Positions 24,495 through 49,671 of a stretch of DNA of 64,000 bases are shown here, piece by piece. Position 1 is the stretch's first letter. Each line of letters opens with the position of its first letter. The notes below the pieces were generated by a model. That model saw only the letters and a program-made list of their open reading frames with translations. It did no database searches and was not told where the DNA came from. The translations under genes were made by a program, and so were the position numbers. The stretch covers positions 322,222 to 386,221 of the forward strand of contig FN648038.1 of NCBI GenBank assembly GCA_000310025.1. Direction: 5' to 3'. The DNA is from Ectocarpus siliculosus. Its lineage: Eukaryota; Sar; Phaeophyceae; Ectocarpales; Ectocarpaceae.

Positions 24495-26543
24495 ATGGCC
24501 AAGCACCGGCAGAACAAGGGCACCAAAAAGCACGTCAAGAACAGGCCGCGCAAGGTGAGCATGCACCCCACCGACTCGGACTCTGGCTTGCATTACATGT
24601 ATCGGCGCTTGTCATTGCCGTTAGTGCTGGTGGTGCTGGTGACGTGTTAGGGCCGTTGCTCCCCTTGTCTTGAGTGCTTTTTGGCGCTGTTTTTGGTGGT
24701 GGGCAGTTGGTTTTGGGGTTGCTGTCGCCGTCGAAGGTGGGTCCGTTGTCGCGATGCTCTTGCGAATGCTGTTGCGTGTCACTTTTTTTGGTCAGCTCTG
24801 CGGCGTCCTAGGGTGTGCTATGGATGCATGCTGCGTTTGCCTTTGTTTTTCGGGTGTTGCAAGCAATATTTGCTTCATGTATGTACTCCATCCTTTGTTT
24901 TTGTTGGCCCCGATACGTATCGTGCAATTGACATGTACTCAAGCCCAAGTCACAAACCACTTGAATAGCCATGACTGACACGTCTAATGGTCTTATTTGA
25001 GGCTTATACTTTCAAGTAATTGTACATTCGAAATCGGCCTGCCCGCTTGAGAACCCGTTGGTCAGATTCTTGGCTCGGAAGGGTTTCGGGTGAAGCAGGC
25101 GTGTTGCCTAGCCGACCCGGTGGTTGCGGAACTTGCGCTCGATTGCCGCAGTGGGCCACCTCCCCTTGCCCAACGGTCACAGTCTTGTTTACCATGCGCT
25201 GGAATGTTTCGTACTGTGCCACAAGAAACCCTAGGGTTTTACTTGTACTACAGCACGCTTCCCGCCCCGCTTCACCCTTCCCGCTACGCTGGGGCATAGA
25301 GAAAGTGGGCTGCAAAGGCGGGAAGTTCTATCGATAGGAAAGTGAAAACATTTTTGGAGGCACCTTTGGCAAAGTAGGAGGGAACTCTGGGCCATCGGTA
25401 GGTCCTGTGGGACCAGGACTCCGTCCTCTCGACGACGCGTGGTCAATGGTCTTCACATCAAATCATCAGAGTACATCCGCCGCCCCCCTCCTGAAAAAAA
25501 TCACCCCTTTTTTTTGTCGTCGTTTTTTTTTGACAGTCTCGCCTGTCAGACCGGAACCGCAAGCCAACGGACTACTCGATCGAGGTCAACACGAACGGCA
25601 ACTTCCCGGGCGCGCCGCCGGTGTTCGAGCTCGAGTCGGAGCCCGAGGAGGGGATCGACACCAAGGTGTGCACGGACAGACTGGTTGCTGTATGTCCTTC
25701 GCAGGAAGCCGCCGCCTCTCGGTGGTCAACTCTTTTGGATGTTCAGGCGTTCTGATAGATCATGGATATAGATCATTCGCATATGCTGGTGTGTGGGCAT
25801 GCCATGGAGTTGCCGCCCGGTATCCCTTCAAGCTAGGTGTTGGCCGCCGCCGCTCTGTGGTTACCCTAGCTAGTAGACGGGCCACAGGGAGTTTTGGCGG
25901 GCCGTTCCTTCTGTCCTTACCGGTTTTGTGCGTTCTTGTTCGGGGCTCCCGCCCGGTTGTTGTACATTCTTGGTTTTTTTGGAGGGATCGAAAACCGAGT
26001 TGCGTAGGTGGTGCCGTCGGCAGCCTCTTGTTGTCGAGAGTGTAGGTTTTTTTTGTGCGTTGCGAATCCCGGGCGTTCTTGTCGAAGGCGTGAGAACCGG
26101 GGGAGGGTTTGGTGCCGTGTCGAGGACATTTTTTTTTTTTTTATCTACTGTGTACCCCCTCCTGTTTGACCCTGGATGGTTGTAGTTGTACGAAAACATA
26201 CACTGAAAAGTCTAGTTCACGTCTCACCACGAAAAATGGGTGGACTGCTGTCGCCATAATAAATAGGTCGAAAACATACGCACGCCTTCGGCTCTTGCAC
26301 GAAATGTAGGTCCTCGTCTCGCCCTGACTCTGACTACCGTTCTCCCTGCCTGCCGCCTGTTCCCTGTCACTGCTGCTGCTGCTTGCTGTCATGGCAACGC
26401 TGCCCTCGTGCCAGGCGTCGGTGATCGAGGCGCTCGCCTCGGCCGAGTGGGACGCGGAGCAGGCGGCCAAGCCGGCTGTAGACGAGAGCAAGGAGATGGA
26501 GGTCATCATGGGGGGCGACTGGAAAGTCCTTGAGACAGCTTAA
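24495..26543 (+). CDS. Small basic/acidic protein, 105 residues, 3 exons
   Basis: Exons 24495-24554, 25537-25665 and 26415-26543, all phase 0, give a complete protein of 105 residues. The start MAKHRQNKGTKKHVKNRPRK is the first exon and ends exactly at a GTGAGC donor. Exon 2 follows a T-rich acceptor and contains PTDYSIEVNTNGNFPGAPP, then an acidic stretch. Exon 3 is Ala/Glu-rich and ends GGDWKVLETA before TAA. The very basic N-terminus resembles nucleolar or ribosome-biogenesis proteins in composition only; no family was recognised. Intron 1 contains a 3' fragment of the same LINE family seen at 46 kb. Codon use is strongly G/C at third positions, supporting a real gene. Confidence 0.72.
25280..25495 (+). 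mobile_element. LINE 3'-end fragment (poly-C family)
   Basis: This intronic stretch matches the 3' end of the minus-strand LINE at 45.76-47.0 kb. Shared blocks include AAAGGCGGGAAG, CACCTTTGGCAAAG, GGCCATCGG, GGTCCTGTGGGA, ACTCCGTCCTCTCGA and GACGCGTGGTCAATGGTCT, in the same order with small indels. It ends in a shortened C-rich tail. It is heavily truncated at its 5' end and lies in sense orientation in intron 1 of the 105-residue gene. Confidence 0.75.
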
Positions 26544-29314: not shown

Positions 29315-32300
29315 CTACAAGGCCGGCGGTTCGAGCGCCGCGGGGTCCCCGAAGTACTTGAAGGCGTGCGGGCCGTACAACCCTTCCAGGTACTCCGCCA
29401 TGAGCTCGACCGCCGCCTCGCGACCGTGGACCCCCTGCTCCACGAACCAGCGCGAGTTCAACAGCTCCGCCGTCGAAAGCCGGTCCTAGGGGTGGCGGGC
29501 CGAGAAAACGGGTCGTGGTCGGTGGCATTGTTGATTGGTTTCAGTAGACTTCGAAGGGTTTTTCTACGAAATAGATATGTTGGATAAAGCATGCAATCGA
29601 GGAAGTTGGGTCAGGGTTAGGGAATACAGTCTGCGTGCCCCCTCCCTGTTCTATCACAAACTTAATTTCTCCCGAAGGAAGTCCTTGGATGACCCCGGTC
29701 TTTAGCGCGGGTGGGAGGTGTGCAACCAGTGTAGGCGGGAACAACTCAATACCGTCCTCCAAGTATCGCTTGAGATGGAACGCGCGTAGATAATGCTTCG
29801 CGTTCATGATTCAAGTTTGTGCGGGCTCTAGAAAGCACGAACATGAACTTTCATACTTCAGGAGTCCTGTACCATGGTTGAAGAGTGCGAGAACGCCCAG
29901 CTGCTACCTGTAGCCAAGAGAAGAGAAGAAGAGGACGCCCGTTGAGAGGGATAACAATCCCTACATATAGTAAAAAAAAAAAAAAAATCTACCTTGCGGG
30001 AAGGGCCACCGTCACGAACTTAGCCCTCCATTGATTCAGACCGTGCCGAAGCACTGAAAATTGCACGGAAAAAACTCTCCGAGGCATTCAACTGATTCAC
30101 ATGGCCGAGGGAATTCACACATCCCAGGATATGCACAACAAACAGAGGCTCCGGACTATAATACCAAGTCCCCCGGCTTTTGTAATCTTTTCAGCAAAAA
30201 AATTGTGACCAGGGACAAGATAGAGGCACACCAACACTGATGATGAATACACTGCAAATGAAACACCTCTCTAAATTTGGTGTGCGAGGGTATGGTGTTC
30301 GACCTGTCGTTTCTTGCTAGTCTCATCTCTCCAGTCTTCCTTACGCGCCCACAGCCCCATCCCACAAACCACATTCAAACCACTCTACCAGACCCACAGA
30401 CCCTTGCTACCGTATGCGACGCAAGATAACACACCCCCTGCATCGATGTTCAAAGCTCGATTTCTCAACAGCAGAAAGAGTCAAATCGCCGAAAACGGCG
30501 GCGTTGAAGCCGTCTGGTCGAGAACTTTCCGAAACTGTATCGTTTCGTGAAATCATCCCCTTGGTCGTGGCGTAATCGAGCTTTGAAAATCGGCCCAGGG
30601 GGTGTGTTATCTTGTGTCGACTGCCGCAGTCTCGTCTCTTCAGTCTTCCTTGCACGCCCACAGCTCCATCCCACGAAACACATTCGAACCACCCACTTTG
30701 GGGTCGCGATCCTCGTTAGTCTCATATCTGCAGCCTTCCTCGCGCGTCCAAAGCCCCCCCTTTCCCGCTACACACACATCCACTCCGCCCCTACACGCAC
30801 CCACCCACCTCCGGGTTGACCATTAGGCAGTCGCCCACGAAGCCGACGAAGGCATCGCTGAGGGGCACTCTGTCCTCCGTGCCGGAGGGCAAGAGGCCGC
30901 TGCCGCCGTGCTCTTTCAGGGTCTGCAGGATCTCAATCTGGGAACAACCGTCGGCGTAGGGGGCCTCCTGCTCTCCCGCGGGGGGAAACAATTGAGAAAG
31001 GGGTTTGGCGGGGGGGGGGGGGGAGACAGGTGATGTCAACACGTGGTTGGGGTGGTACGATTGCCGTCTTGTTTTTGTGCCTCGTTCTTGGAGAAGGCAA
31101 AAAGCAGCAAGCACTCGGGACCACACGACACCAAGCCTTTTGTATTCGACCCTTAACAACAAGCCGAGTTCTTCGCCCGACCTCCCGCCAGACCGTAACA
31201 ATTAAATCGACAACCGGTGGCCCTTACCCAGCATCAGGTAGCCCTTCGCCGCGATCATGGATAGCGTTGGCGTTAGCGTTACGGTTGGCGAACCCCGAAA
31301 AGTGCGACACCGACATACCCATACCTGACACCTCAGCTCCTCTCCCCTACTACCCCTATCACCCTATCCGCATACACACCAGTGTTGTCACAGGAAAAAA
31401 AAACAAAAAAAACGCCCGAGGGTTTCAAAAGCTAGCAAGCACCGAGTTATGTCCCGGGAAACAGACCAAAGCAATCACAACCCTGCCCTCAACCACAACA
31501 AAAAAACGCTGCTACACCTAGTCTCCGCCTGCCCCACCATAGCTGTGCAACGGAGGAGGGGGCGGGCACGCGTACCGTGTGCTCTTCCCTGCCTAGCTTT
31601 CTTCTGTCCCCGGGGCCGTCGCGACCATACGCCCGAAACACAACCATAGCCATGCCGCACATTCCACACCGCCCATGTCTCCCACCCAGGTGGAGCACTT
31701 GATCGCTCACACAAAAAACCTAGACCAACGGCGGTTTCAATAATCCACCGCGCTATCTAGCACGTCCGCCTGCATGCCCACACAAACTCTGCAGCAGAAC
31801 CAGCCTCAAAACCTTCGACCTTACTCCACACACTATTGTGGTGGGTATAACCTCGTAAACCTACACGCAGCGATAGAATTCGGAGTATACACAGAAGTGG
31901 TAAGAGAGAACGGACTACATGAAAAAAACGATTGGAAGCACCGCCGTGGGCAAAGTTGAACAACAAAAACGTTTGTCTTCCTCCTGTGTCCTGTGTGACC
32001 CTGGCTGGTACGTCAAAAACATGTACGGCAAGGTCGGGATGTGCAGACTTGCGCAAGAATAGACACGACAGATAAACAAACACACATATACAACCATGAA
32101 CACAAGGGTCCCAGATTGTGGCCTGTACAATCATTTTGTGTTAACAACCGCACTGAGACTGACGTCTTTTCATTGGTCAGCCGGTTAGCGCGGTCTATGC
32201 TAACTAATGGAAAGTAAGAAATACATACATACTTTACACACACGAGAGACTTCTTATTCCGCCGCATGACTGACCTCAGCAGGGTAGTGCTGTCGATGCT

Positions 32301-35300
32301 AATCAAGAGAGACACACACACACTCGATCATAACGACTACGGCATGCACGACTATGAGTACCCCCCCCCCGGTGTTTGCCATCGGGGTTGGGTTTTCGTC
32401 GCTTGGCAACGACGTTGTAAAACAAGCCCCCCCCCTCGGTGTTTGCCATCGGGATTGGGTTTTCGTCGCTTGGCAACGACGTTGTAAAACAAGCCAACTC
32501 ACTTCGTGAACTCGGCAACCAGGTTACAGTTTTTTTTTTTACCTCTGTTTTTTTTTTTTTGCGGTAACCATGAATGGTGGTCCAGTAGATCATGTTGTGC
32601 GGGGTCGAGAACCCTCACTCCGCGCAAGGGGGATGATCGCACCACGTTGTGGTAACATGGTAAAGCATCCTCGAGGCAGTTACACAGTGCTTATAACTGT
32701 CTCCGGAAGTAAAAGCACCAGAAATTAAATTAAGTCATACGCAGCTGTCATCCGTACGCAACGAAGTAAGCACAAGATGCCGAACACCCTTAGCAGGATG
32801 CAGCGCACCCTTCATGCGACTCGCCGAATACCTCACGGCGCTTCGCGCTTGGTGATGTGAGAGCCTGGTCCGGTGAGAACCCGGCGTGCTCCGTCCCGGC
32901 TTTGCAGGGATGCGAGGTCAATGGTCTAACGACTACGGCATGCACGACCATGAGTACAACCCCCCCCCATACACACACCTGCGTGACGCACTCGATCATC
33001 ACCAAACCGAGCCCCCACACGTCCGCGGGCCGCCCGTACGCCTCCCCGTGGAGCCTCTCCGGCGACATGTACCTGACCGTTCCCACCACCGTCTCCACCA
33101 TCGCCCCAGCGTGGTCAAGCTCTCGAGCAATGCCGAAGTCGGTGAGTTTAACCTTTTGGGTCGAATAGGGCGGGTGTGGGAAAAGGGGGGCACGCGGATG
33201 TGTGTGTGTGGTGTGTGTAGATTAGGGGACGGTCCAAAGGGAATTGTTGTCGTGGACTATCTCCTCCTGCGGGGGTGAGACAATTTTTTTTTTCTCATTT
33301 AGAAAGTAAACACAACCTGACAGAAAGACTACCCGTTCGAGATATAACCTCAGTCGAAAGGGATGCGTCTTTTTATTTCCCGAAAACACCCGCTTGTTGG
33401 GCGCCTCGCCGTGGGGAAGGTGTTGTTGGACCGCCTGAGCACTGGCGGACGACGCTAAGAGTGATGCCCGCTGCCATAGGCTACAACAAAAACATCTCTC
33501 TTGGCATGTCCCCATCCATCATTACGTTTAGGGTGTCGTGTCGTACAGCACCCCAACAACAACACGAGCCGCGCGAGCCTTCCCGCGTACCCTTCTTAAG
33601 GTCCTTGCTTCGGTGTCAGCCGCGTGCTGTGAGCGAGGATAGGGGTGGAACCATCAAACGGGTTTGCTAGATACGAGACGCCAGCACGGCATCTCTCTCT
33701 CTCATCTGTCTCGGTGCTTGACGGACTCACCTCCCCTCTGGCGTTGAGAAGGATGTTGCTCGGCTTAACGTCGCGGTGTAGCTGATTGTGCTCGTGGAGG
33801 TACGTCAGGCCCTGTCACGCCGTGATCAGACAAACACACCGACAGAGCGGCGGCAACAACAACGGTCATGAGAACGGACGCACAATCCGACCAGCAAGAC
33901 ACAAGAGCAGCCACCCAACGGGACAGGCAACTCAGCACAATCACGGCCAGATCGACTTGAAACGCAACTCATACGCCAGAGATGTAAAAACAATGTGCCA
34001 CGATTTCCTTTTGAGAAGCGACCGTTTGGCCCCAGCAGCGGGGGCGGTGGCGGCGGCGAAAAGCACAACAAGAGCACCAAACACCGCCCCCATGCCACAC
34101 GCGGTGCGTCCACGCGCCACACATCCCCAAGCCACTTACACCCCATGGCACAACACTCAGCACCAACAAAACACAGCAGCAGTAGTCGAAAATACCCTGT
34201 ACACCTCACAAAACATCTCGAGCGCCAACACCGACACCCGCGGATATCCACACCAACCCGCCTCACCCCCAGTATTTGGTAGACGCACGCCGCGACCACA
34301 TCTTCGGGAAGGCCCGTCTGCACGAGCTCCTCCTCGAAAGCTCTGTCCCACTCCTCTTGCTCCTTCTGCCTCTCCAGTTCCGCCGCCGCCTCCACCCGCC
34401 TCCTCTCCGCGGCCTCCGGTCTCTGGTGGAACGAGGACGAAGAATACAGCAACCGAACACTAAACCAGTCAGCGCTGCCTCGTCTTAAATTGGCTCCTAT
34501 CTTATCAGCGACCAAAATCAAAGCCTCGGATCAGTCAGCGCTGACTGGTCTTAAAAGCACAAGTACTTTTATCAGCGAAAAAAATCAAAGCACTAGCCTA
34601 GACACGCAGGCGCCAACTGGTCTTCATGGCTTACGTCATGAACAACCAAAGTAAAGCCTTGCATCAGTCAGCCACGACTAGTCGAAGGATATGCATTGCT
34701 ATTAGCAGCCGGCCCCAAAGCAGTGGGCGGTGACTGGTCTTGTAACGGTTTGATCTCGGTTGTCAAACCCAGCAGCAGGTACTGACTAACGCCATGCCGA
34801 ACAACCGTGCCAACGGGGCAGAGTGTGCTTGATTGTCGGCTCTCCCTACAATAGAAGCGGAACTCAAACCATTAGACTAGTCAGCGCTGACATGTCTAAC
34901 GGTTTAATATTGGCTTCTATAAAAGTTAGCCATGGGGTTCGTGCGACCCGGCACTTTCGCTTCCCCACCCACATCCACTCACCACCTCTGCTGTCACAAG
35001 AGCGGGAGAGAGAACAAGGGGCATGTAGAAGCCGAAATCAAACTGACTATAATAATGATTTGGTATACTACACAGGGCCCAGCAACAGCTCCGGTAGTAC
35101 GAGTACTAAAACATCGGGGTGGAGTGTAACCCCAAGTTGTGGGTGGTACGATGACTCGACCCAAACAAGGGGTACAAGTATACCGCGGCGGAATGTTGAG
35201 AGGAAATAGACCGATTTCCTGGAGGATGACGTGTTCCCACCACAACGACCCGCACGTCGCGAGAGGTCGACTTTCGGAATCCAGAAACACGGCGCCAACC

Positions 35301-38104: not shown

Positions 38105-38180
38105 CCAGCGGCATGCTCCGTTCCGGCTTTGTAGGAATGCGAGGTCAATGGTCTAACGACTGCGTCATGCACGGGTATGG
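38105..38180 (+). repeat. SINE-like poly-C family copy, 5' and 3' truncated
   Basis: GCATGCTCCGTTCCGGCTTTG, GAATGCGAGGTCAATGGTCT and AACGACTGCGTCATGCACGG match the family seen at 32859-32969. The C tail is replaced by a C-rich GGTCCACCTCCCCACCAC. It lies about 330 bp upstream of the MAPKK start. Confidence 0.65.
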
Positions 38181-42238: not shown

Positions 42239-45200
42239 ATGAGTGCTTTAGCACAGCTGAAGAGTCCTGCTGGTTCGGAGGAAAGCGGAGAAGGAGGGCC
42301 AGCCCCTGCTGCTGCAGCTGCGGCGTCGGCGGCGGCGGCTCCGGCCGGTGAGGCAGGTGCTGCTGCTGCTACTACTGCTGCTGCTGCCGCCAGTTGCACT
42401 CTCGTCGCGAAATGGCAGGGAAGCACGATTGAGCTGCCCGTGTTGCCGAGCAGCACTACGATAGGGGAGGTGAAGGTGGGTGCGTTGGTCTCGGCAGAGA
42501 AGGAAGACACGTGTGTAGGGGGGAGGAAAAACTGTTACATACAGCACCTCAAGCAACAACGCTACTCGTGTAGAGCCCCGAGGCAAACTCCGGAATTCCC
42601 CCGCGCTATCGCACTATCGCCCCGGTGGTCTAGATAGTATCTTCGAAACCTTCTAGAGGTCAGGTACAATATTCGAATCCCGGCGTAAGCGAGCTTTTCT
42701 TGCAAAGTGAGGTTCTCTCTCGCTCCCGCTCCTAGCCTAGTGGATTGTGCTAGTTCGTGTGTACACAGAGGGAAGAGAGTGCTGAACTCTTCTCGCCCTA
42801 AAAATCGAAGGCGAAGTACCGCAGGAGGGGAGGGCACAGAGGGGCTCTTCTGTGTGACCACTGGTTGGAGTAAAACGGCACTAGTCCTGTGAGCGCTGAT
42901 TTGACTTGTAAGACAAAAAAAAAAAAAAATGTACTGTAAAAATATAACACCGCGGGTACACTTGTACAACAAAAAGGGTACATTTTCTCGGTTGCTGGTT
43001 CACGCTCGTATGTTGCATCTACGTAGCAGCTGTTTCGCGATACGTCGCTTAAACAGACAACAAGATGTTTCCTCCCTGTTGCCCGAAATGTCGCAAGCAC
43101 CGTGTGTGAGACGTTTTGTCGCCATATTTTCGTCGTACAGCAGTAGCCTTCTGGATCAAGCCGATTGACACCCTCCAACGCGAAATCGACAAGCGCAGCT
43201 GACTCTAGTTCCGGCCGCCGAACAACTATTCGATCGACCAAGATGGCCAAAGATCCTCGCAATGATGCCCACCCCTCCCAAGTGACTAAAGAACGAGCCG
43301 GTTTCCATGACCGAGTGTGGAGCCAATGCCACCGAATTATCTGCAACTTCTTCTCCCAGCCCTCACACCGATCTTGCCAGTGAGGCCGTCCAGTCCACAA
43401 TGAAGAGGTTATGTACGTGTTACCAGGTATCATACCTACTGCTGTAGACGGCTATCCTACACCGTCGTGAGGTGATTATCTCGGCTCCAGTGATTGCTTG
43501 GGATGCGGTTGACTCTGGGGGTGGAGAGTCAGGGAAGCGCACCCGAACAAATCGAACCAAGATGTAAATAAAAATGTCTCCAACAATCGGGCTTCCGATC
43601 CTGTGCTATTGAAGCTCAACTTTTTTGCACATGACGGACGTCAGATTTGTAGAGGAAGAAATCTGCTTCGAGTATCGCACATGGCCTCAATCTTGCACAC
43701 ACGCTCTCTGCTTTGGGTTGAGCTATTGGAAAAGAAGTGATGATTTTGAACACACGGTGTTTGCTTCACCCTTGCATGTGTTGAATGAGCTTGTGTTTCA
43801 CTTGTGGTATAGACATCAGGGAGATCAAGGCTCTTAGACTAGGCGCTGGGAGAGAGAGGGAGAGCGCGCTGCACGCACTTCCAGATACCCGAGCCCCGTG
43901 GATGTACCATGTGCCCCACCCAGGGTACTACCAGTTCCTATATGCGACACAACGTAATACAGTGCGGTTGGCACCTATATCCAAGTCCGCCCATGCACAC
44001 ACGAAAACAACCAAAAGTTACGTACACAAGACCGGATCAGCTGTACAATAGTAACCGCTCTGGAGAGGGTACCACGAGGAGGTGTTTGCTGAGAACGCAA
44101 CGCAGCCTGCACTATTCGAGAGGTGGAATAGTGCCGTTCGCAACACCGGATTCCCCGCATCGCGATGCTACTCCCTGTCGAGTTTTTGGTTGTGGTCATG
44201 ACCGCCCGCTGAACGTGTAACACACCGGGGGTACCGTGGCAAAGCGGGGCGTTTGGTGGTGGTGGTGGTGGTGGTTACTCATTGTCATGCATGGCGTAGT
44301 TGTTAGACCATTGACCTCTCATCCCTACAAAGCCGGGACATTTGGGGGGAGAGGTCGTTAGACCATTGACCTCGCATCCCTACAAAGCCGGGACGGAGCA
44401 CGCCGGATTCTCACCGGACCAGGCTCACATTTGGGGGGGGGGGTTATATTGTGCAACCCATCAACAAGTTAGCCGATCTCTTAGGATATACCAAGAATAT
44501 TGCCGTATTCGGCGTGAGTTTTAGCGGGGGTTTGATGTCGAAATGTGGTGCAACCTGTACCGCGATGCGTTCCGCCCCCCTCAATGGTCTAACGACTACG
44601 GCATGCACGACTATGAGTACACCCCCCCCCTCCCCATCCTCAATGCGAAAAAAAAACCCAGGAAATTCTCCGCGAGAAGACGCGCGTCCTGGCGAAGCGG
44701 CAGAAGCTCGTCGGCCTGAGCGTCGGCGGGAGGCCGGCGGCTGACGATTGTCCCCTGGAGCGGATACGCCTCAAGACTCCTCACCGCTTTATCCTCATGG
44801 GCACCCCAGAGGTCCGGGGCACCGTCAGTAGTTTTGCGTACGATAGATACCACCCAACACCCCCTGGAACATTTTTTTGCGAAGTTCTATCCGTCAGCAA
44901 GCGTGATGACGGTGGTGGTAACGAAGGATATGGCGGGGCATTGGTTGGAACAGTCTCGTCCAGAAAATTCCGAATCCGTATCATGTTGATGTTTGCGTCC
45001 TCTTCGTCGTGGAGTAGTTGGGCCTGAAAGCATCGATCCAGGTGTCATGTCATGTACCAACCCGGTGTACGCCGTCTACCTCCCTTTTGGGGGGTTCTCG
45101 TCGTACTCAATGGTGTAGTGCGGTGGGCACAGCGTACGTTAGGGGTGGCTGAGTGTGGCCAAATATGGGAGCATTTACACTATTTTCATTTTTTATGTGT

Positions 45201-48200
45201 GAGTCCTGAATACGTCACACGCTAGCGTGCAAACAAACAAAGAGATTGAAGAAAACAATCACCCCCCCCTTTTTGCGAACCTGCTGAAGTAATTCATTTC
45301 GCGGTGCCCCTGGACCGTACGCCGTCTTAATGGATTGGAAACAAGCGTCTTCTCTCTCGACTCTCACCGCGTTTCATTTGCGGTCGAATGCTGACTCTTG
45401 TTTATCGTTGGCTTTGTTTGTGTGTCGTTCTTTTGTTTTTTCGCGCTCGGTCCGCTTTTTCCTTTTCTTCCCGTTTTCCGGTTGGTTCTGGGAAACAAAG
45501 GCGGAGATTTTCGTGGACCCTCGCGAGAAGGAAGACCTACCAGAGGTTTTTGACGGTGAGAACAAGAGAAGAAACCACATGCGTGTGTTTGTGTGCTTGG
45601 CACGGGGGAGGGGGAGAGATAAAGAGAGGAAGGTCGAGATATAGGGAGGGAGAGAGAAAATGAGGGAATGGATATATACGAACAGAGAGCAAGATAAGGA
45701 GAGGTAGAGACAGAGATAGACACCAAGACGGAAAGGGAGGGAGGGAAGGGGGGGGGGGTTATGTTTTGCATGCCTTAGCGGTTAGACCATTGACCACGCG
45801 TCCTCGAGAGGACGGAGCATTGTTCCCACAGGACCGATCACCGATGGCCAATCGTTCCTTCCTCCTTTGCCAAAGGTGGCTCAATAATGTCTTCCCTAGT
45901 CTGTCTATCCTAACGATATCCCTTCCCGCCTTTTCAAACCACTTCCTACTCCCCAGTACAGCTACCGTCCTCTCCTCTCTATTCCATGCCTCAAAGATCT
46001 CCCTGTACGTCCCTTGTATTTTTCCCAGCCCAGTCATGTACACTTCCCTCTCCTCTTCGTACCACGGACATTCCGCGACTACGTGAACACCGCCTTCGCA
46101 TTCGAAGCCGCAATCACATTTGAACTTGTCGTCTTCGTCGTCTACCGTCCTATGTCTTCGTCGACGTTCTCGAAGGCCTATGTCCCCGGTCCTGAATTTG
46201 ACCTCAAGCTTTGTCCCTGCATCCATTGGTCCATGTAGGTAATCCTTGAACCCGATTCCTTCTTTCAACATTCCGTACACTTCTAGACCCTCCTTATCCT
46301 CGGTTTCTTTCCTTAGATTATGTTCTTCTCTCTCGGCACAAGCAACAGATATCTTCTCCTTGAACCCCTGTAGACCCTCCGTTTCCAGCGTTTCATCTTC
46401 GTCGATGTCTAACCCCTTCCATATGTCCTCTACAACCTTGACCCATTCCGTGGGTTGTCTACCCCTCTTGTTGTTTGCCCACTTCGCTTCCCATACTATT
46501 CTCGGCAACCTCTCCTCTCCCATCCCGAACATGCGATACTGCCATGTCAGCTTCCTTGCGTCTCTTCCCGACCGTAGGGATTGGATCCCCAATTCTGCCC
46601 TGACGGCTGCATTACTTGTGCGCTTGGAGCATCCTAGGATGATTTTCGCTGCCTTCGTCTGCGCCGTCTCGAGTTCTTTCACTACCTTCTTATTTCCTTC
46701 CCATACTTCTCCGGCGTACTCTAGCGGCGGTACGATTACGCTCTTCAAAACCGCCAATTTGATGCGTGTATCGAGGTGCCGGTTTGCGAGTATTGGGTGC
46801 AGCTTCCCTGCCCTTTTCCGCTACCTTGGACATGTGTGCATTCCACGAGCAGTCGTTTGCGATCTCTACTCCGAGGTATGTGTACTGGTCCACTACTGCA
46901 ATCTCCTCGATCCCCCACTTCCATCTGTTCTACTGGTTCCTCCCTGACCTCGTTGCACACCATGACGGCACTCTTCTTAACGTTGGCAGACAATCGGGAG
47001 GGAGGGGGGATAATAGACTGATCTTCTTGGCGGTGTTTCGCCTTGGCACATGCATCACGTACAGTGTCGTATCGCGTGGGGTACCTTCCGGGCCGGGATA
47101 AAGTATTGTACAAGTACCCTAGGTCGATACTTCCGTGTCTGTGCTGAACACCGGCGCCGGATAGATACAGATTGGACGAAAGACACGTGACACAAGCAGT
47201 TGACACAGCAGTCCCTTCTCTCCTGTCTTGCGTGCTCGCTCTCGCGTGCCCTCTCTCGTTGCCGCGGCAGACTTCGATTTGGACGTGTCTCACGCAAGTG
47301 AGGCGTGGAGGCAGGCCATAGAAAACTCGGACAACTTGGCCAAGTTTACGGAGAAGACGGAGGTGAGAGAAAGACCACGGTATGCACGAAAATGGCGTTA
47401 TTTCAGAGCAGGAAACGACAGTAAAAGAAATTACGCTATTTTTGAGTGGGGTGGGGCAATGAAACAGATTATGCCGGGACTTGCTGAGAGTTGAGCATTA
47501 CAACGATGAAATGTTTGCTACTGGTGTAAGAGTAAAGCAAACGGCAATGAGGAAATGAGCGTCGAGTACTAGCCCAAGCCCGAACGGGCCGGAAACTATG
47601 TTTCATCCACGTCAGCGTGCGTATTCATGAGCCCCCCGCTGTGCCCCCCCCCCCCTGTACGTGTTTTGAAGCTGCACTTCATGAATCCCCCACGAGACGG
47701 AAAGGCCCTTCTCGTCCTGGACCTGGACCACACCTTGCTAGACTTCACCACGCGGGTGGGGTTTCGAATAGTTGTCGAAGATGTCTACACTGATTGTTTT
47801 TTTGAGTGATGTGGAAGGAGGCACGGGGATAAGGGTAAGCCGACTTTCGTTTCGTGCGTCGAAGTGTCTTCCGGTCTATTTTTTCAGATGTGGAAGGCGA
47901 ACAGGAAAAAGGGTAAATACCGAATTCGTTGCCTGCATTTGTCGATGTTTTGCCTTCCGGCCTTTGGCTGTGCATGTTCCACGTGGAATATTCACGCAGG
48001 GTGAATGAGCCCACGAAGAAACCTTCCTTCAACATGCCTCGTGGTTTCGCTGTTGGTGATTACGATTTGGGTCATTCAACATTCCTCGCGTTTCGCTGTT
48101 CGTGAATGTCGGTCGGTTTTGACCAGGAGACGGCGAGCCCCGAGCAAATGAAACGGCCACACATGGACTCGTTCCTGTCAACGGTGTACGAGCACTACGA

Positions 48201-49671
48201 CCTGGCCATCTGGAGCCAGACCTCCTGGAGGTGGCTCGAGCTCAAGCTCACGGAGCTGGGCTTCCTCAACAACCCAAACTTTCGGTGAGAGAGTCTTGCG
48301 TGTGGACGTGTTCACGACACGATCGCTGCTGCTGCTAGCTTGGCCATGCCTCGCGATGATTTTCCGCGTATTTTTGTTTGTTCTGCCACCTTCCTTTCCC
48401 CTTAGGCGCTTGCCTTCGATGCATACTGCTCTGTTTTTTCTTGCTTTGTTGCGACGCGTTCCGATTTTTCTCCGAACCCAATGCCGGCCTGCTATGTCTT
48501 CGTGCAGGCATAATATAAATGTCTGCACCTCTCTCCCTGGCCGCACACTAAATGCCTTGCAATGGCTCTGTCCGTCTGTCTGTCTGTCTGTCTCTTTCTC
48601 TCGCCCCTTCTCGCTCTCGGCCTAGTAGTTGTTGCTTTATGTCCACCCCTTGTTTTTTCTTTTGACACAACATTGTCCTACGTTTGCTGTTTGCTGGTCG
48701 ATGTCGTGGTGGCTGTGCTCGTGATCGTCGTCGTCGTGTTGGGCGTGTTTCGGTGCCACCGCTGCCCGGGCGCCGGTCCGCAGCATTTGCACCGTGCTCG
48801 ATAAGACAAGCATGTTCGGGGTGACCTCCACCAAGAAGGACGGGGAACAGCGACGGCACCAGGTGACCACTCCAACCCGCCCCCCCCCCCCCCCCNNNNN
48901 NNNNNNNNNNNNNNNNNNNNNNNNNNNNNNNNNNNNNNNNNNNNNNNNNNNNNNNNNNNNNNNNNNNNNNNNNNNNNNNNNNNNNNNNNNNNNNNCCCCC
49001 CCCCTCCCCCCCCCCCCAAACTCTTTGTAGGGATGCTAGGTCAATGCCCTAGCAACTACGGCATGCCCAGCCATGAAGACACCCCCCCCCTCACACGCAC
49101 CTTGCTCGTTTTCAACCTCGTCACGCGCCCGATCGTGTTGGTGTACTGCGGCTTCTGCTGTGGTGGAATTTTCCTGTAAATTTCATCTCTAGCACGTCCG
49201 TGTGGCGTCGCAAGGTTACTCGCGACTCCTACGGAAATGTAGTCCTTTCCCTCCCCCCGCATCACCGCCTCGTCCTTGCTGCGCTTTCGGCCCGTGTCGT
49301 GGTTGTTCTCTTTTTTTTTTTTATCTTAATATGACACAACGAATCCATCTCTATCATAGAAAAGAGTCTGAGACAGATTAGCAATGAATTTATAGCGTCA
49401 GAAAGTACCTGTCATATAGGGACCTCTCCCCTGCGGGTAACAGGCTCAACAAGACAGTTTGGTAGCTGTCTTGTGTGTCTCATGTATGTTATGTTCGGAA
49501 CGTGCAGAAGAAATCTTTTCTCTCTTGACGACGGGTTTCGCGGTTGGTTGCGTTTCACCGAAAAAAGGTGAAACCGCTCAAGATTATCTGGGACAAGTAC
49601 CCAAGATGGCACGCCTCCAACACCTTGCATGTCGACGACCTCTCCAGGAACTTCGCGCTCAACCCAAAGTG

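Follow-up and report, generated by a model that had tools for sequence, protein, structure and literature searches.

The closest described system comes from Ectocarpus itself. RTEX-N1_Ec32 is a non-autonomous element of about 600 bp with more than 6000 copies, whose 3' end is conserved with the autonomous RTE-X LINEs RTEX-1/RTEX-2_Ec32 and whose 5' origin is given there as undetermined (PMC12477816). In the main text of that paper, supplements apart, the words poly-C and homopolymer are absent, and the passages on RTEX elements name no target preference for them. The short element described below is like RTEX-N1_Ec32 in its size (here ~590 bp, with two head monomers) and in its LINE-like 3' end; since the two are compared by description only, we say that the common 3' end of the LINE and the short element has very probably been published already for Ectocarpus (PMC12477816).

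Other RTE elements offer further points of comparison. Those of Lepidoptera are described as having an extremely short 3' UTR, regularly made of simple repeats, and many 3' fragments, and the passages concerned treat the microsatellites of these elements as plain tails (PMC2887409). The Ectocarpus LINE resembles them in its APE-type endonuclease and reverse transcriptase, single ORF, short simple-repeat 3' end and many 3' fragments; in the lepidopteran elements, however, the repeat is described as lying between the duplications and the sites do not appear sequence-specific, whereas here the C run lies inside the duplication (PMC2887409). The role of simple repeats at LINE and SINE 3' ends is described as lacking general consensus, and Bov-B members as rarely flanked by targets resembling their repeats (PMC13295347). 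The same layout as here is found in a known pair of an RTE-clade LINE and a SINE with a common 3' end and microsatellite-like ends, but the targets of that pair rarely resemble the 3' repeats, as those of the Ectocarpus elements do. According to the paper on the pair, site-specific LINEs occur in Tx1 and R1 only among the APE clades. LINEs that target simple repeats or telomeres include Dong at (TAA)n, TRAS at (TTAGG)n and Togen at (TG)n (PMC2887409, PMC4640811). The elements described here are like these three in being inserted into pre-existing simple repeats and unlike them in that the target is a C homopolymer. Dong belongs to a lineage with another type of endonuclease. The same is stated of NeSL, the lineage near which Togen is placed (PMC4640811).

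The window analysed is a stretch of 64,000 nucleotides from Ectocarpus siliculosus (contig FN648038.1, positions 322,222 to 386,221 of the forward strand), and the features of interest in it are collected in the table.

Table. LINE and short-element features in the window, numbered from its first letter
Feature	Position	Strand	Remarks
Older LINE 3' fragment, then GAGTAC and a C-rich stretch	25300..25488	+	79% over 25300-25452; read by eye
31-bp 3' fragment of short element (32331-32361) with C10	32331..32370	+	abuts front of full copy
Full-length short (SINE-like) element	32371..32958	+	two 67-bp head monomers, body, LINE-like 3' end
C9 run at 3' end of full-length short element	32960..32968	+	
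5'-truncated short element	38109..38173	+	more diverged (91%); interrupted C-rich 3' end
5'-truncated short element	44276..44339	-	ACC repeat as 3' flank
Truncated short element	44354..44429	-	CCCCCCAAAT at both sides, C11AAAT on 5' side; by eye
41-bp 3' fragment of short element	44581..44621	+	C6 at 5' junction, C9 at 3' end
C11 run at LINE 3' end	45748..45758	-	usual GAGTACG before the run missing in this copy
5'-truncated LINE copy	45759..46995	-	covers the final ~1.24 kb; whole element 4.67 kb or more, encoding APE endonuclease and reverse transcriptase
C-rich 5' junction of LINE copy	46996..47009	-	CCCCCCTCCCTCCC in LINE sense; duplication not cleanly readable
5'-truncated short element	49023..49076	+	more diverged (83%); C runs both sides

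The LINE is a young APE-endonuclease element. Its window copy is 95% identical to a longer relative, and in the relative L018 a frame of 1383 codons, stop to stop, holds an APE-type endonuclease at residues 195-425 (PF03372, 42.6 bits against a cut-off of 24.5) and a reverse transcriptase (PF00078, 113.4 bits); the nearest solved proteins to the L018 product are L1 ORF2p and R2. The element exceeds 4.67 kb, its extreme 5' end not being fixed, and in addition to the endonuclease and reverse transcriptase domains it has the 5' truncation and target-site duplications of APE-type LINEs. The family is probably RTE-X, a label that we borrow from PMC12477816, where the family described is probably the same. 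Its copies usually end with the stop codon TAA, then GAGTACG or GAGTAC, then (C)n; since the stop codon stands just before GAGTAC(G) and the C run, there is almost no 3' UTR. The C-rich stretch at 46996..47009 is probably part of the insertion target of the window copy. A third family, ending GGCATGCAAAACCATGAGTACG, was suspected from one flank and dropped, as only 2 places in the genome match at no more than 1 mismatch.

The short element is about 590 bp long and non-autonomous, without a long frame; its longest stop-free stretch is 81 codons in 599 nt. When the full-length copy is used as a BLAST query, all seven places listed as short repeats in the initial annotation are recovered, six of them as 3' parts of the element and one at full length. 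The 67-bp head unit is present one to four times per short copy, with C runs between the units (L067-L086), and a C run likewise separates the two monomers of the copy at 32371-32958. This repeated head resembles the promoter monomers of some LINEs. Among eight short copies the mean difference is 1.8% (28 pairs, gaps uncounted), a value biased to likeness because the copies are best matches. Two truncated short elements stand in tandem at window positions 44276-44429. The one at 44354-44429 (-) has lost the last ~25 nt of its tail and ends CTCTCCCCCC at a C-rich join; this shortened copy and its ACC-ended neighbor at 44276 suggest that copying need not begin at one fixed point.

The short repeats had been read as SINEs mobilised by the LINE. 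The part of this that stands is the combination of a 5' region of their own with a common 3' end, by which LINE-dependent elements are usually recognized; strict SINE status finds no support. The element is short, lacks a long ORF and has its 3' end in common with a partner LINE, as a SINE in the strict sense should, but neither a Pol III promoter nor a head derived from tRNA, 5S or 7SL was recognized in it, and a promoter could be strongly diverged. A tRNA search found no tRNA in the element, an Rfam search returned no family above its cut-off, and for an origin from tRNA, 5S or other RNA nothing above cut-off was obtained. Runs of T11 and T13 lie inside the element, and such internal runs are expected to stop RNA polymerase III. 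B-box-like matches with at most 3 mismatches number 4, compared with 6.7 per shuffle, and A-box-like matches number 2, a count without a control. Given the absence of a tRNA and of an Rfam family in these searches and the internal T11 and T13 runs, we use the term SINE-like rather than SINE. One match, to Dictyostelium class I RNA, was weak (E 0.36) and on the opposite strand, and was taken as chance.

Local alignment bears out the proposal that the LINE at 45759-46995 (-) and the seven short repeats have a common 3' end. The last 110 nt of the LINE and the short element align over ~83 nt with gaps at a score of 53, compared with a best score of 24 in 1000 single-letter shuffles; the shuffles, together with the abundance of copies in the genome, argue against a chance likeness. 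In the LINE, the common block consists for the most part of the last stretch of coding sequence. A conserved hairpin in the block is not claimed. Single-sequence folds have a stem at the same place in the LINE and the short element, but the aligned fold draws on little more than two lineages, and the aligner placed no gaps in the hairpin loops, which differ between the two elements. Of its 18 pairs, 3 have changes on both sides, and each of these is kept by one and the same set of seven LINE-type rows.

For the genome-wide comparison, 189 Mb in 492 contigs was searched. The EsV-1-7 domain (PF19114), according to PMC12477816 a domain that has proliferated in brown algae and is otherwise found mostly in giant viruses, has 150 scored matches in this genome and none in 14 control genomes, as would suit a brown-algal source. 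The first pass gave 1871 candidates for the short head and 2363 for the LINE end, counts that are unconfirmed since 40 of each were scored. The 40 LINE copies collected consist of the window copy plus 20 plus 19; 28 have a usable 5' junction, and 12 were dropped for want of one (L018, L088, L090, L091, L092, L094, L098 and L101-L105). From 41 short copies, with 5' starts set by hand, 34 were used; the other seven (L037, L041, L043, L045, L048, L054 and L073) were set aside because their stretch contained N or started at, or close to, the junction. The LINE-end and short-element queries held 3' C or G runs and could favor tailed copies. Free of this tail bias is a protein-based LINE sample, for which the last 303 LINE residues served as query and 20 places were chosen from 131, among those reaching the C-terminus; the 5' junction lay outside both nucleotide queries.

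In these samples, the copies of both families end in C runs almost throughout. In the protein-based sample, C runs of at least 6 follow 20 of 20 LINE copies. A run of at least 5 falls within the first 40 nt past the 3' end in 27 of 28 LINE copies, the exception being L100, and in all 34 short copies. Four of the seven short repeats in the window end in C runs of at least 9 (at 32361, 32960, 44622 and 49082), and the other three in an interrupted C-rich stretch (38173), the ACC repeat (44276) and the shortened tail (44354). Assembly gaps are often found next to the C runs of LINE ends: among the 20 tails L106-L125, 7 reach N within 90 nt, and complete copies may thus be undercounted in the assembly. 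In the window, C runs at 48880 and 48996 immediately flank an N stretch at ~48896-48995.

C runs are also found at the 5' junction. Within the last 30 nt upstream of the LINE copies, a run of at least seven C occurs at 21 of 28 junctions and one of at least seven G at a single junction (L016, which also has a C run and a gap). Control windows, which were placed within these flanks 120 nt or more upstream of the junction and are not mutually independent, have such C runs in 5/167 and such G runs in 2/167. The short element gives 24/34 for C and 0/34 for G, with 2/108 and 0/108 in its control windows. Runs of at least seven A or T are found at 1/28 and 0/28 LINE junctions, respectively, and at none of the 34 short-element junctions in either case, while in the window A/T and C/G runs of length 8 or more are about equally common (29 and 28). 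In full-length short copies, the head may be preceded by a C run that belongs to the element (L046, L085), so truncated copies provide a cleaner figure: 5 of 9 5'-truncated copies have at least seven C. A C run of this length is lacking at 7/28 LINE and 10/34 short junctions; those seven LINE copies have C6 or C5 in two cases (the window copy and L099), C4 in three, and C2 in L013 and L017. The orientation to the target repeat is fixed, the sense strand of the element lying on the C strand.

The target-site duplications, whose search had been proposed, begin inside the C run where they are readable. In 8 of 28 LINE copies, the 5' and 3' flanks have an exact match that is 11 nt or longer and includes 3 or more non-C letters; among mismatched pairs, 4 of 756 do. 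The match in L025 is of low complexity and doubtful; the remaining seven start with C and run on into the flank, as in CCCCCCCGCGGTACGTC (L009), CCCCCCCCCTGTATT (L022) and CCCCCCCCCCTCCACA (L087). Clear duplications among the short copies are confined to L085, with the 18-nt CCCCCCTGCTTCGGCACC, and L046, with 9 nt; the short-element test at 9 nt or more gives 3/34, hardly above the background of 30/1122, and the three include one tail match. At both ends of L009, L022, L046, L085 and L095, the duplicated sequence extends 4-12 nt beyond the C run.

A view of the target before insertion is provided by L009, which sits inside another dispersed repeat. A search with its joined flanks gives 41 matches, two being its own halves, and at the insertion point in the five uninterrupted host copies that were read stand C5, C5, C4 and C7 in four and C2 in the fifth; L009 itself has C15 after GTAC. 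L079, a short element behind a LINE end, and L120, a LINE, adjoin this host repeat at that very point (81-93% over 37-57 nt against the five host copies), with C14 and C11, respectively. A C tract is thus usually present in the target before insertion, as in the targeting of a simple repeat. Taken together, the C runs at the 5' junctions, the duplications and the C tracts of the host copies indicate that pre-existing C tracts are where the elements insert, and that they do so in a single orientation.

Some of these tracts belong to the families themselves. In a motif search, a family tail or head with a C run lies directly upstream of 4/28 LINE and 5/34 short copies. The LINE L011 lies in the C run between the head monomers of a short element, and behind the C-run end of a family member are the LINEs L014, L095 and L099 and the short elements L029, L044, L056, L071 and L079. 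Insertion into family C runs indicates that insertion supplies new targets. Zepp-type LINEs nest in their own poly-A, with insertion into their own tails making nests; there the letter is A instead of C, and the copies form clusters.

We consider it probable, with good confidence, that pre-existing C tracts are the main insertion sites of the LINE and its ~590-bp partner and that the sense strand of the element comes to lie on the C strand, by the following steps. The LINE protein would recognize the common ~83-nt 3' end of the RNA, as the sharing of this end suggests; its endonuclease would nick the G strand of a C:G tract; and the G-rich 3' end of the DNA would pair with terminal C residues of the RNA and prime reverse transcription. 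A second cut downstream would then account for the observed duplications of ~9-18 nt, in which the C run comes first. Each new copy would carry C runs on both sides and so offer fresh targets. Target-primed reverse transcription at C:G tracts would be the simplest account of the preference for C tracts and of the orientation, both of which the sequences themselves establish. We are more tentative, somewhat short of an even chance, about a wider reading in which an RTE-related APE LINE evolved homopolymer targeting through pairing of RNA C residues with the G strand, the partner hijacks its ending, each insertion duplicates its target, and the pair thereby builds and maintains its own C tracts.

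The initial annotation regarded the C runs as an unusual poly-C tail. If that were all, the RNA would end in C, whether encoded or by slippage of the reverse transcriptase, and sites would not be chosen for C. The 3' run is indeed often longer than that of the target (15 and 7 in L009, 15 and 9 in L022), and at the host repeat of L009, L079 and L120 it measures 11-15 compared with 2-7 in the uninterrupted copies; the 3' side thus usually gains further C on insertion. Against a tail as the whole explanation are the C runs at the 5' junction and within duplications, the C4-C7 at four of five empty host copies, and two copies with little or no gain: the 3' run of L085 equals its duplicated C6, and in L087 the 3' run is 10 compared with 11. 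A tail with no choice of site is therefore contradicted as the full account, and we think it unlikely, but it remains true as a part: there is a C run at the 3' end and C is gained, while a C run was also in the target beforehand.

The 5' runs by themselves could instead come from microhomology joining of the truncated cDNA end, or from recombination between tails, with no targeting of the first nick. C runs are prone to such events, and some copies are nested in family tails; however, duplications that continue 4-12 nt beyond the C run at both ends are more than joining alone can yield, and we hold this origin to be quite improbable. There is hardly any chance that the short repeats are mere truncated LINE copies with a trivially common end. 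Six of the seven window copies are 3' parts, as this would have it, but the full copy at 32371-32958 has a head and body of its own, the same head is present in many copies elsewhere in the genome, and the full-length element has a real match to the LINE copies examined at the 3' end alone. Its other matches are of 13-18 nt with E about 1, or are stretches judged to be neighboring short elements, as in L063 and L064, where several hundred bases or more separate them from the LINE part downstream (judged by position). An origin as a deletion product of the LINE was rejected because the LINE copies examined have no match beyond the 3' end and those of 13-18 nt; this rejection is not final, the extreme 5' end of the LINE not being fixed.

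Insertion into pre-existing C tracts, the reading that we prefer, is the new part against the published RTE background. In a literature search that covered sections and passages of papers, no report of a LINE aimed at C tracts came up. In the two families described here, both with many similar copies, ending and target agree, and pairing between RNA and target as a guide for insertion thus becomes testable. C-tract insertion could also explain some of the C tracts of the genome.

Elsewhere in the window, positions 30319-30782 contain three 65-nt direct repeats, and a 53-nt inverted pair lies nearby (30417-30469 and 30567-30619, 85% complementary).
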